This document shows, one piece after another, positions 6,108-61,876 of a DNA stretch of 64,000 bases (the stretch's first letter is position 1; each line of letters begins with the position of its first letter). This stretch comes from Inia geoffrensis (Eukaryota; Chordata; Mammalia; Artiodactyla; Iniidae): NCBI GenBank assembly GCA_036417435.1, contig CM070899.1, positions 315,001 through 379,000 of the forward strand. Reading direction: 5' to 3'. Made by a program: the position numbers and the translations under genes. A model generated the notes under the pieces. The model was not told where the DNA came from. It made no database searches and saw only the letters and a list, made by a program, of their open reading frames with translations.

Positions 6108-6566
6108 ATGGAGTTGGGACTGAGATGGGTTGTTCTTGTGGCTATTTTACAAGGTAATTTATGGAGAGCAAGAGATACTGAGGGTGTGAGTGGATATGAG
6201 TGAGGGAATCAGTGGATGTGTGACAATTTCCTGACCAGGATGTCTCTGTGTTTGCAGGTGTCCAGTGTGAGGTGCAGCTGGTGGAGTCTGGGGGAGGCTT
6301 GGTGAAGCCTGGGGGGTCTCTACGACTCTCCTGTGCAGCGTCTGGATTTACTTTTGATGATTATGCCATGAGCTGGGTCCGCCAGGCTCCAGGGAAAGGA
6401 CTGGAGTGGGTGTCATATATTAGTTGGAGTGGTGGTAGCACATACTATGCAGACTCTGTGAAGGGCCGATTCACCATCTCCATAGACAACTCCAAGAACA
6501 CGCTGTACCTGCAAATGAACAGCCTGAGATCTGAGGACACGGCCGTGTATTACTGTGCGAAAGATA
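6108..6566 (+). CDS. IGHV3: IGHV3-subgroup heavy-chain V segment, unit A
   Basis: Germline V segment for the heavy-chain variable domain, usable after joining to D and J. Leader exon 6108-6153 (MELGLRWVVLVAILQ) ends at a GT donor; the 104-bp intron ends in TTTGCAG; the V exon runs 6258-6566. The signal peptide ends GVQC and the mature chain starts EVQLVESGG at 6269. FR1 cysteine (LSCAAS), FR2 WVRQAPGKGLEWVS and YYCAKD are intact over about 99 codons. CDR1 core is DDYA and CDR2 SWSGGST. FR3 has ISIDN, with isoleucine at Kabat H71 where arginine is usual, a feature shared only with the unit E gene. The reading frame is open and the RSS is canonical, so it looks functional. Confidence 0.97.
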
Positions 6567-6605
6567 CACAGTGAGGGGAAGTCAGTGTGAGCCCAGACAC
6601 AAACC
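6567..6605 (+). other. 23-bp-spacer RSS, IGHV3 unit A
   Basis: Heptamer CACAGTG 6567-6573, 23-bp spacer, nonamer ACACAAACC 6597-6605. It fits V-to-DJ joining by the 12/23 rule. Confidence 0.97.
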
Positions 6606-7665
6606 TCCTTGCAGGGAGACAGGAGGGGGGATGCAGGGAGCATTCAGGACATACAATTGTGTGTTTCATCCCCAGGAGCAGGTGCAGATGGTAGTTAAGG
6701 GCTGCTTTCCTCTAAGGGTCTGGGGTTTCCTCTCCATATAGCAGTTATCCCTGGGGAACCTCTCTGTATTCATCCTTGGTTCTTTACTTACACATTCAGT
6801 CTCTCAATTAGAAACCCTTTTCGAAATAGGGGGGAAAATGTCATATATGAAAGGCAGAGACTCAAAGTTATATATTCAGGATTCCCTTGTCTAAATCTTG
6901 TCTAAATTGACCCATTTCAAAACTATTCCAGCGGATTCATAAAGAGTTGAACATACTCTTCCTTCCTCATTATGATCTTTCAGCCTTGCCCTACTGTAAA
7001 CCAGCTGTCCCTGCCAGGATGCTGGCTGTTGACCTGCCTGCTAACCTCTTGCATGAGAAGCATAAATGCGCTGAGCAGCCCCGGATCCTCAGTGGGTCGC
7101 TGGGAAAGATGCCAGTTAGAGGGGGCGTGGGTGGAGGTTGTTTCTACATGTGCTCCTTGCTTCCAGGCCCAAGAGAATCCCTACATGCTATATAAGACCT
7201 GCATCCTGTTCTACTGTGCAGTTTATTTTATGTCAAATATTCATCATCAAAGCTATTACCAATAGACACATATGTAGTTGGCAGGGAACGTTTATAGGCA
7301 GGTGGATAATAACATGAATTTTCAGAAGCTGCTGAAAACAAATCTATTCTCCTTTCTTCACCATAGCATCTCAGGTGAGCACTAAAATGCAGGAAGTCCC
7401 ACAGCTCCTCATTCCAGGAAGAGTCCTGCAGCCTCACAGGAAGGCCCACCTCTGTCCAGGAACCTTTGCAGGGGTGGCCAGGTCCAGGGTGGAGACGCCC
7501 AGGCCTTGACAGGAGGTCTCACTGTGTCCTGCTGTGTGCTCTCCAGCACATCACCTGCCAAGTCCAGGCTGCAGCTTAGCTTCACATCTATAGGATTCAA
7601 GTAAGCCGTTACCTACATCACATGCTTGGTGTGCGTATGTAGAAACAAATTAATAAAAGAGACCC
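6606..7665. other. 3' flank of IGHV3, unit A
   Basis: Non-coding. Overlapping frames of 80-100 codons at 6947-7265 recur in all units and seem to be unselected. A weak G-rich 'gggggatgcagggagc' follows the RSS but is not a convincing CTCF site. Confidence 0.5.
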
Positions 7666-8428
7666 TGAGTGTTGGCGCCCAGGGTAGGCCACCCGAAATT
7701 ATGCCTCAAAGTGACTTAAGACAGAGTCAGTTCAGAGGGACATGCTGACTTTCCTCCGTGTTTTCCTGAAGTGAGACATAAACCTCCCATGTGAAAGGTG
7801 CTCTCCCCACATCTAGTCGTGGAAATGAAATTGTCCTTCAACTCATGCCTTCCACCTGCCATTTTTCTGTGGAAAAATATTTAGCCAAAGAATAAGTTTA
7901 ATCAGAGAAGCGAGCAAATGCAGAAAGAAGGGAAAACTGTCCAACAAGACTAAATACGAATAGTTTGCTCATTAAGCAAATAAAGGACCTTTAGTTCCTA
8001 CTCAAGGGCTATAGAAAATATTCTTGTCCAAGTCCCATGAGGCATCTTATAGATACTGAAACTCCCACCAGAAGGAAGAAATTAACTCCATGATGGCCAG
8101 ACTGTAGCCATGACATAAGCTGCCACAATTGCAAGAACTGGCCTCAAAGAAACGGGAACAAATGCACCCTGGACCTGAAGATTAACTCTACTTAAAACAA
8201 TCAGTATGAGGCTGATCAGACCACCACATGACCAATTGCAAGATGACTGTCACAGTTGACTCTGCCGTTTCTGCGCATAGCCCCTCTTTCGCCTATAAAC
8301 GCGCTTTCCCACAGATTCTCAGTGTCGGGTGGCCTTTGGAGAGAACTCTGTGCCCCACCCGCCAGTGCAGGGAGCCAAAATAAAGCAAACTTTCCTTTCA
8401 CCAACTTTGCCTCTTTATTGGCTTTTCA
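7666..8428 (+). mobile_element. LTR-like element, unit A
   Basis: The segment begins near 'TGAGTGTTGG' and ends 'GGCTTTTCA'. It holds a TATA-like TATAAA (8294-8299) and a polyadenylation signal AATAAA (8379-8384) 85 bp later, the order expected of U3-R-U5. Copies at the same place in B, C and D show that it predates the amplification. No flanking retroviral genes are seen. The family was not identified and the ends are approximate. Confidence 0.45.
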
Positions 8429-59400: not shown

Positions 59401-61291
59401 GTCCACACGACGGGGATCCAAGGCCCAGCCCTCAGACTCGGCTGAGCCCCCAGCCTACTCTCAGGGTCACCCTCCCTTACACGTGAGTGTGCATCACAGG
59501 AGCAGGTCCTGCAGCTGAACTTGAGCCTCTCACAGCGACCCTGCATGGAGCAGGGCGGGCTTCTCCTCCAGGCTCTCACAAAACAGAGAAGGGGAACAAA
59601 ATAAAGAGATGCTGTCAGTGTAAACTGTCAAAGGTTGTGGCAGGGTTTTGTGCATCTGTCAGTACCTGGAACTTTCTTATTCATTTCCGCGTGCGATCCT
59701 CTTTCACCATTTCATATGTGGTAAATATATGGCACAGTGGGACGGGATGAGGGGACAAAGGTCACACTGTGAGCGGAGATGCTATGAAACAGTACAGATC
59801 CAAGTCCAGGACCAAGGCCCTCCTTCCGAGGATGCGGGAGGACCTAACAGCTCAGGCGGGAATCCTGGACTGTACCAGGTAGGAAGACCCACCTGTGTGG
59901 ATAGAGAGGTAACACCATCTGACTCACACTTTAGCAGGACCACACTGACACTGGCGAGGTAGCTACTTAGGAGACGTTGGGACACTATTACAGCCTGACT
60001 ACACTGGACCTCAAGGCATCCATTTCTAGTTTAATCTTGTAGAAGTTTCTATTCCATTCAGCAGCCTATGTCAGGATTAATACTCTTATTCTTTGTTATT
60101 CTGTGAGGACTTGTCTCTCTCCAAGATTTAAATTTATTGCTGTTTTATTTCTATAATTATCTGATATGTTGGTGAGATTTGGATAATGTGCAACTTGCCC
60201 CATTTTCAGGCTGTTTTCAGATCATTAAATAAGAAGAGCTTTCTCAGCTTCTCATCTGTGTGCATCTCCAAGACGAACATCAGCTTTACTGTAACACCCA
60301 GAACTTGGAAACAGTTCCCTTATCACACATCAGCTTAATAAATAAGCCAATCATGCTATGATCATTCTTTAAATACAACCTGCTATTAAAACCAGGATTC
60401 TTGATACACACAAAAACATGATAGTATTCACAACTATTTGTGCTGAGTAAAATAAGCCATAATAATATATATATATTTTTTTGTTTTGATCATATATTAT
60501 GTTCTCATTTTTATAAATTCTAGAAACTGAAAAGTAACCTAAAGTAACAAGGGAAGATCAACAGTGATGTGGGGACAGGATGGACGATAAGAATGGACAG
60601 GAAGGAGGAAACCCAGAAACTCCTGAAAATAATGAGAGGAAGTGATTTGTTCTCTCCCGATAATACTGATGCCTCCGGCAGTATTTATCAGAGTGTTCAT
60701 TCTGAGTGTGTGCACTTTATTATATGTCAAGAACCTCATTAAAGTAATTACAAATAAAGAAAGGCATGACTTGGGAGGGAAGGAGTGAAGGGAAGATACT
60801 GAAACATAAGAGACTCTTGAAAATACTTCTCATCAACACTGACCCCCTCCATACATTTTAGGTAAACACGAGAAGAGAGCAAAGTCATCATGACCTCATT
60901 ACAGGAGGGGGATCTGCAAACCTCACCCCGCAACTCCAACTCTGTCCTCTAGTAGGTTCAACGGAGAAGCCTGGCGCAGAGCTCAGGTGCCGATGCTGGA
61001 TCTCATGGTCACCCCTTGTTTCTCCTTGGACACTACCCACACCCTCCATTCCTCTGGGTGTAGTTTACACCTCTAATATGAGGGTAACAATGACAGCTAC
61101 ATCACAGGATGTGTGTGCATATATAAAATGACATATAGGTCCTAAGTGCTTACTCTGGAACAATCACAGAATGAAAGCTATATTTCCCAAATGATATCAA
61201 CACCACAAAATCCAGGACCCTCACACCTACTCTGAGACCCTGCCCTTTCTGATAACATTCAATGACATAGCCTCTTATATACTAGAAGGTC
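56446..61291. other. Spacer to IGHV3, unit E
   Basis: Long version of the first spacer. It lacks both the CHR-type SINE of A, B and D (single 'gattgcaggga' near 56573) and the CHR-2 SINE of D (empty site near 60355-60370). No gene seen. Confidence 0.6.
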
Positions 61292-61324
61292 ATGCAAATA
61301 CGCTCCTTCCTCTGCTGATATAAA
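61292..61324 (+). promoter_or_regulatory. IGHV3 promoter: octamer and TATA, unit E
   Basis: ATGCAAAT 61292-61299 and TATAAA 61319-61324. Confidence 0.9.
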
Positions 61325-61417
61325 GCAGCCCCAGCCCTGAGCCGGCAGCTCTGGGAGAGGAGCTCCAGCCCGGGATTCCCACGTGCTCCATTCGGGCTTC
61401 AGGACAGAACACTCACC

Positions 61418-61876
61418 ATGGAGTTGTGGCTGAGCTGGGTTGTCCTTGTGGCTATTTTACAAGGTAATTTATGGAGAGCAAGAGATACTGAGGATGTGAG
61501 TGGATATGAGTGAGGGAATCAGTGGATGTGTGACAATCTCCTGACCAGGATGTCTCTGTGTTTGCAGGTGTCCAGTGTGAGGTGCAGCTGGTGGAGTCTG
61601 GGGGAGGCTTGGTGAAGCCTGGGGGGTCTCTGCGACTCTCTTGTGCAGCGTCTGGATTCACCTTCAGTAGCTATGCCATGAGCTGGGTCCGCCAGGCTCC
61701 AGGGAAGGGGCTGGAGTGGATCTCAGCTATTAGCAGTAGTGGTGGTTACACAAACTATGCAGACTCTGTGAAGGGCCGATTCACCATCTCCATAGACAAC
61801 TCCAAGAACACGCTGTACCTGCAAATGAACAGCCTGAGATCTGAGGACACGGCCGTGTATTACTGTGCGAAAGATA
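61418..61876 (+). CDS. IGHV3: IGHV3-subgroup heavy-chain V segment, unit E
   Basis: Leader exon 61418-61463 (MELWLSWVVLVAILQ); V exon 61568-61876; mature EVQLVESGGGLVKPGGS from 61579. CDR1 core is SSYA as in D, the CDR2 end GGYT then NYADSVKG as in B, and FR3 ISIDN as in A, so the exon combines alleles found separately in the three other intact copies. FR2 is WVRQAPGKGLEWIS and the end YYCAKD. No stop, conserved residues present apart from H71 isoleucine, and canonical RSS: apparently functional. Confidence 0.97.

Follow-up and report, generated by a model that had tools for sequence, protein, structure and literature searches.

Conflicting genealogies within and around the V exon suggest repeated DNA exchange between neighbouring immunoglobulin heavy-chain V units of Inia geoffrensis

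The 64,000-nucleotide stretch analysed here (the window, C1:315001-379000, C1 being contig CM070899.1 of the 2.75-Gb Inia geoffrensis genome) lies within a tandem array of immunoglobulin heavy-chain variable (IGHV) genes. Comparison of its repeat units makes it very probable that neighbouring units have exchanged DNA repeatedly, through both unequal crossing-over and interlocus gene conversion. In the aligned copies, blocks of differing genealogy are shown to follow one another along the unit, and one copy, X1, carries an exon of the X2/X3 type in flanks of the E type. Recombination accounts for the array because silent sites conflict, informative sites fall into blocks, and the X1 exon matches X2 and X3 despite its flanks. 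These same observations support the proposal, made in a preliminary description of the window, of recombination or conversion between units inside the V exon; exchange there stands, but it is not confined to the exon, since the unit is a mosaic along its whole length.

As found by protein search and DNA comparison, the array covers about 126 kb (~C1:278-404 kb) and contains 8 V3-like exons (X1, X2, A, B, C, D, E and X3) and 9 V4-like exons (v0-v8), counts that are lower bounds given these search methods. The two families, which we take to be V3 and V4, alternate in units spaced 13-20 kb apart. The window holds nine unrearranged V exons, five V3 (A-E) and four V4 (v3-v6), each with a recombination signal sequence (RSS: heptamer, 23-base spacer, nonamer): nine of the 10 RSS matches in a scan of the window adjoin these exons, with one mismatch in eight of them and three in C. 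The Pfam V-set domain (PF07686) scored above cut-off in both exons scanned, A and v5, searches of solved structures listed antibodies only, and the V4 sequence has an artiodactyl look. Reading frames were examined for every V3 and V4 exon of the array (eight and nine, respectively); seven V3 frames are open, the exception being C, which has stops. X1, X2 and X3 are open V3 copies beyond the window whose exons are identical (0/303 differences), and X2 and X3 were for that reason collapsed with X1 in the six-exon, silent-site (V3) and substitution-ratio work. C was left out of the seven-copy and quartet tests because it is a pseudogene with its leader region replaced; it was kept in the six-exon test and in the 3'-block alignment. 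The V3 exons of the window are given below with their residues at the core of complementarity-determining region (CDR) 1, at the end of CDR2 and at heavy-chain position 71 (H71), which we take to be codon 72 of the exon in Kabat numbering.

6269..6566, + strand: V3 exon A, DDYA, TYY, Ile71; RSS heptamer from 6567.
19945..20242, + strand: V3 exon B, DDYA, TNY, Arg71.
32833..33130, + strand: V3 pseudogene C, DDCA, TYY, Arg71; two stops, three RSS mismatches, leader exon absent at the usual place.
47730..48027, + strand: V3 exon D, SSYA, TYY, Arg71.
61579..61876, + strand: V3 exon E, SSYA, TNY, Ile71.

The preliminary description had noted that A, B, D and E show all four combinations at each pair of CDR1, CDR2 end and H71, and translation confirms this: the three sites support three different pairings of the four copies within 135 bp (exon 81-215). 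Twelve exon sites are informative for these copies, eight of them for A with B (81-93; the pairing is written AB/DE below), three for A with D (63, which is silent, 169 and 175) and one for A with E (215). CDR1 comes as two 13-bp blocks with eight linked differences at 81-93, including the synonymous third positions 81, 84, 87 and 93. Because this block follows the AB/DE tree of its 5' flank, it needs no conversion and cannot serve as evidence of it. The CDR2 end, with two linked transversions (169 and 175), is a true conflict: it disagrees with the 5'-flank tree and finds support in the 3' flank, which places an exchange between CDR1 and CDR2. H71 is a single unlinked transversion at 215, common to A and E, with no further site setting A and E apart from B and D in exon 176-303; flanking sites share the partition of the neighbouring conflict in the 3' flank for CDR2 and not for H71. 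Lacking that linked support, H71 does not by itself show conversion. Nor does it lie outside CDR selection as a framework position, as had been argued, since it is described as co-determining the conformation of CDR-H2 (PMC7960778) and is therefore not free of selection; for H71, selection and exchange cannot be separated. Conversion at all three sites was accordingly rejected for CDR1, and it is unproven for H71.

20025..20037, + strand: CDR1 block of B, AB/DE as in the 5' flank (A 6349-6361, D 47810-47822, E 61659-61671).
61793, + strand: second codon base of H71 in E (A 6483, B 20159, D 47944).

The blocks become plain once the flanks are included (positions counted from the start of the V3 exon). 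The 5' flank from -1147 to -182 has 17 AB and 2 AD sites among A, B, D and E. In approximately unbiased (AU) tests of segments whose limits were set after the sites were seen, AB/DE is strongly preferred for -1541..110, which includes CDR1 (others <3e-5); it is disfavoured for -100 to 80 (0.027) and rejected for 165..430 (0.006), where AD/BE is best; and for 601..961 AE/BD is best, the other trees receiving 0.002 and 0.03. Further 3', sites favour AE mostly from ~+1300 to +2900, AD from +2900 to +3300 and AB from +3300 to +8900. Runs tests on A, B, D and E find 16 runs where 26.8 are expected in the V3 block (p 1.5e-4) and 31 where 104.5 are expected over ~7.8 kb further 3' (p 2e-4), and 28 of the 35 quartets of the seven copies give p <0.05 (uncorrected, the quartets not being independent). 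A test of the pairwise homoplasy index (PHI) type on the seven copies gives p 5e-4, the minimum with 2000 shuffles. The discordance includes silent and non-coding sites, and incompatible sites are clustered along the sequence.

6881..7193, + strand: 3' flank of A (+613..+925), where all 8 informative A, B, D, E sites favour AE/BD.

Pairwise comparison of copies, by a GENECONV-like shuffle with a minimum global p of 5e-4, locates individual tracts. By their flanks X1 and E are duplicates 90.1 kb apart, with 28 differences over 2.5 kb; 10 of these fall in exon 123-262. Between X1 and X2, 108 positions differ in 2.5 kb, none of them from -410 to +309 (global p 5e-4); between X1 and X3, 94 differ, none of them from -325 to +309. 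Identity tracts bounded by divergent flanks are thus present in X1 with X2 and in other pairs. On the simplest reading, X1 once had an E-like exon and would have received one of the X2/X3 type, though the E exon may have changed instead; the identical exons of X1, X2 and X3 are a local case of homogenisation. X3 and E are without a base difference from -986 to exon +122 (global p 5e-4). Just 3' of the exon, a run at 310-396 is common to X1, B and E: X1 and B are identical over 310-396 (global p 5e-4) and B and E over 324-396 (global p 0.0015), and the run of polymorphic sites there is 17 sites long between B and E and 19 between B and X1. Within the longer B=E stretch, B differs from E at exon 215, 272 and 290 and at flank 317. 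Significant identical stretches (global p <=0.05) occur in 11 of 21 pairs in the V3 block and in 20 of 28 in the 3' block, and the X3 unit shifts from X2-like to B-like between ~+4900 and +5700, as an unequal crossover would leave it.

60593..61700, + strand: E side of the X3=E stretch, ends approximate.
20109..20340, + strand: B side of the B=E stretch, from exon 165 to flank 396, both CDR2-end transversions shared.
61743..61974, + strand: E side of the B=E stretch.

How far the V3 exon by itself departs from one tree was measured in several ways. In a background stretch chosen because it follows AB/DE (+3700 to +8899, the V4 exon and its 150 bp upstream left out), there are 158 informative sites, of which 153 follow AB and 5 are discordant. 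Against that rate, the 4 discordant sites among the exon's 12 have binomial P 4e-4, a rough value given linked sites and a low estimate of the background rate; at least one in 12 has P 0.32, so that H71 alone is unremarkable. Single-tree simulations of A, B, D and E used eight rate models, the mildest uniform and the strongest with CDR x20 and gamma shape 0.2. Four or more discordant sites arise in 0.01-0.41% of these runs, and one AD site or more together with one AE site or more in 1-7%; the simulations expect a coincidence of the H71 kind (AE) 0.11-0.30 times per exon. The fitted gamma shape lies at its lower bound, 0.02, and the simulated models go no lower than 0.2; with rate heterogeneity so extreme, the case is not rested on the exon alone. 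A PHI-type test on the exon only gives p 0.002-0.009, and a runs test on the 12 sites p 0.029 with the eight-site CDR1 block counted as separate sites. AU tests between the exon halves are one-sided (0.024 and 0.082), so the exon was rejected as proof of exchange on its own, and the flanks and X1 are needed.

Silent sites would be expected to follow one tree if the three amino-acid sites alone were discordant; instead they conflict too. Six synonymous third positions are informative among the five distinct intact V3 exons, and 9 of their 15 pairs fail the four-gamete test, sites 63, 81-93 and 129 giving X1B/AD, X1D/AB and X1A/BD. Across the nine exons of the V4 family, the test fails for 11 of 15 silent pairs.

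The V4 exon v6 offers a second case of exchange within a V exon. At informative sites 147, 153, 155 and 158 it agrees with v4, and at 172-174 and 189 with v7; v6 and v4 also disagree elsewhere in that stretch, for example at 149 and 154, so the copy is not a clean one. In the wider flanks of v6, D goes with E (D-E 6/400 and 8/348 differences, D-B 45/398 and 49/347), though over the last 150 bp upstream of the exon D is closer to B (2/151) than to E (5/151). Two silent sites in the stretch, 189 and 213, conflict.

12839..13131, + strand: V4 exon v3 (A unit), showing with v4, v6 and v7 the same kind of conflict across CDR2 and framework region 3.
26488..26780, + strand: V4 exon v4 (B unit).
39392..39684, + strand: V4 exon v5 (C unit).
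54289..54581, + strand: V4 exon v6 (D unit).

Several points weigh against exchange. The data are a single assembled haplotype. The PHI-type test loses strength with six exons (p 0.069, 0.022 and 0.008 at reach 1, 2 and 3), an AU test on the 3' half of the exon does not reject the tree of the 5' half (0.082), and 7 of the 35 quartets are without significant blockiness. AE/BD is not rejected for 165..430 (AU 0.18), because H71 sits inside the B=E stretch and disagrees with it, and the preference for B=E in 216-430 depends on a single informative position among A, B, D and E (365), with added weight from comparison with X1. As four of the six V3 silent sites belong to the linked CDR1 block, the nine conflicting pairs amount to three comparisons, and the conflicts at 63 and 129 are single transitions that could be recurrent. 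The V3 exon columns that oppose both flanks (149, 157, 169, 175 and 215) all change amino acids, in CDR2 or at H71; selection would also give such columns, and selection has probably affected the survival of recombinants or mutations.

A rival view gives the exon one tree and ascribes the conflicts at CDR2 and H71 to recurrent mutation that antigen-binding selection favoured. The ratio of nonsynonymous to synonymous differences (pN/pS), pooled over pairs of five V3 exons and of seven of the nine V4 exons (v7 and v8 left out), is greater for CDRs than for framework (V3 0.71 vs 0.25; V4 1.73 vs 0.20), H71 is tied to CDR-H2 as noted, and coincidences of its kind are expected at the simulated rate. 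This view is nevertheless improbable: the conflicts extend to silent sites, the CDR2-end changes are linked transversions supported in the 3' flank, genealogy also changes from block to block in the DNA outside the exon, and single-tree simulations seldom yield four or more discordant sites. For H71 alone, an independent change in A and E, by recurrent mutation or selection, is somewhat the likelier account and is compatible with exchange for the rest. It agrees with the lack of another A,E versus B,D site in exon 176-303 and with the chance expectation for an AE pattern; set against it are the favouring of AE/BD at +601..+961, through which shared descent or exchange of A and E is also possible, and the change being a transversion. 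Chimeric units made by assembly or polishing are highly improbable. Near-identical repeats are hard to assemble, the exons of X1, X2 and X3 are identical, and only an assembly was available, but the X1 flanks differ from those of X2 and X3 at the positions counted above and the conflicts occur at many places across the unit.

Repeated exchange between units, the explanation favoured here, would have worked in two ways, unequal crossing-over leaving long blocks and copied units and interlocus gene conversion leaving tracts of some hundreds of bases. The 5' part through CDR1 would retain the AB/DE history; an exchange would have fallen between CDR1 and the CDR2 end; the B=E stretch would run from the CDR2 end to ~400 bases from the exon start; and further 3' a history of A,E versus B,D would take over. 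Ile71 in A and E may have arisen by a base change that occurred twice independently, or else by an exchange of very short length. The exchanges were presumably germline events, at meiosis or before, and CDR selection would have influenced which recombinant exons were kept.

It is doubtful, though a lead worth recording, that the V exons, chiefly CDR2, exchange or keep foreign segments more than the surrounding unit, with CDR2 as a shuffled cassette in both families. Columns opposing agreeing flanks in more than half of testable quartets are 5/18 in the V3 exon versus 5/61 outside (Fisher 0.043) and 5/23 in the V4 exon versus 35/754 outside (Fisher 0.005). The columns are linked in both comparisons, each V3 column has only one or two testable quartets, and four of the five V4 columns exceed the limit by little (8/15). 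Selection on random exchanges, or recurrent CDR2 changes, would explain the result equally. The quartet-site counts (V3 exon 9/25 vs 13/145; V4 exon 47/203 vs 198/5686) recount the same columns and are not used as tests. Outside any V exon, ten non-coding columns at unit ~+5609 to +5748 (A: window ~11877-12016) cluster against both flanks, likely a short exchange tract.

Other features of the array accompany these units. Upstream of pseudogene C there is a retroelement remnant, an open frame that encodes an integrase core (Pfam rve; 30631-31134, + strand). On the 3' side of their V3 exon, the X1 and E units have an additional ~7.6 kb (~C1:287.4-295.0 and 377.5-385.2 kb), not found at that place in A, B, D, X2 or X3; some portions of this DNA match 420-438 kb as inverted copies. 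About 2.5 kb past v2, v3 and v5 there are V4-like remnants (window 998-1282, 15340-15627 and 41893-42174), each interrupted by three or four stops; another such remnant, beyond the window at C1:280830, comes after v0 and has three. The v4 and v8 exons are identical and their surroundings 98.8% alike (C1:340.0-344.2 and 402.1-406.3 kb); at its end, the final unit located in the array is nearly a copy of the B unit.

Older work deals with VH conversion in the germline and with birth-and-death evolution; the general process is already known and reported in other species, and this array is a new instance. For germline immunoglobulin V genes of the rhesus macaque, the conversion signature described in PMC5663730 is four genes showing all four combinations of two polymorphism clusters, with three cases found by manual inspection of V gene alignments. 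The same rule applies in the array studied here, in another species and with silent sites, flanks and neighbouring units tested rather than alignments scanned by hand. Human IGKV1-13/1D-13, as presented in PMC11327106, is likewise germline exchange between paralogous V units, but of ~16 kb in one piece, where the tracts in this IGH array run from ~200 bp to several kb. Block duplication of human IGHV segments is similar, with unequal crossover proposed for truncated segments; the relevant part of PMC3042411 concerns duplication and crossover, not exon mosaicism. In horse, the rearranged IGHV genes treated in PMC13183705 also show V-to-V transfer, concentrated in CDR2 and at the start of framework region 1, but there it is somatic, AID-linked, drawn from pseudogene donors and deduced from expressed repertoires, whereas the copies compared here are unrearranged and germline. 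Conversion is spoken of for guinea pig V genes in PMC3382241, which is not used as support. A literature search that lacked most subscription journals found no paper that combines GENECONV with IGHV and immunoglobulin.

What the array provides is a compact setting in which germline V-gene exchange can be mapped closely. A tree of the whole V exon mixes several histories, and allele naming, orthology and selection tests are affected. Because copies of the repeat unit exchanged stretches of DNA, neighbouring heavy-chain V genes are patchworks of one another, the antigen-binding exon included.

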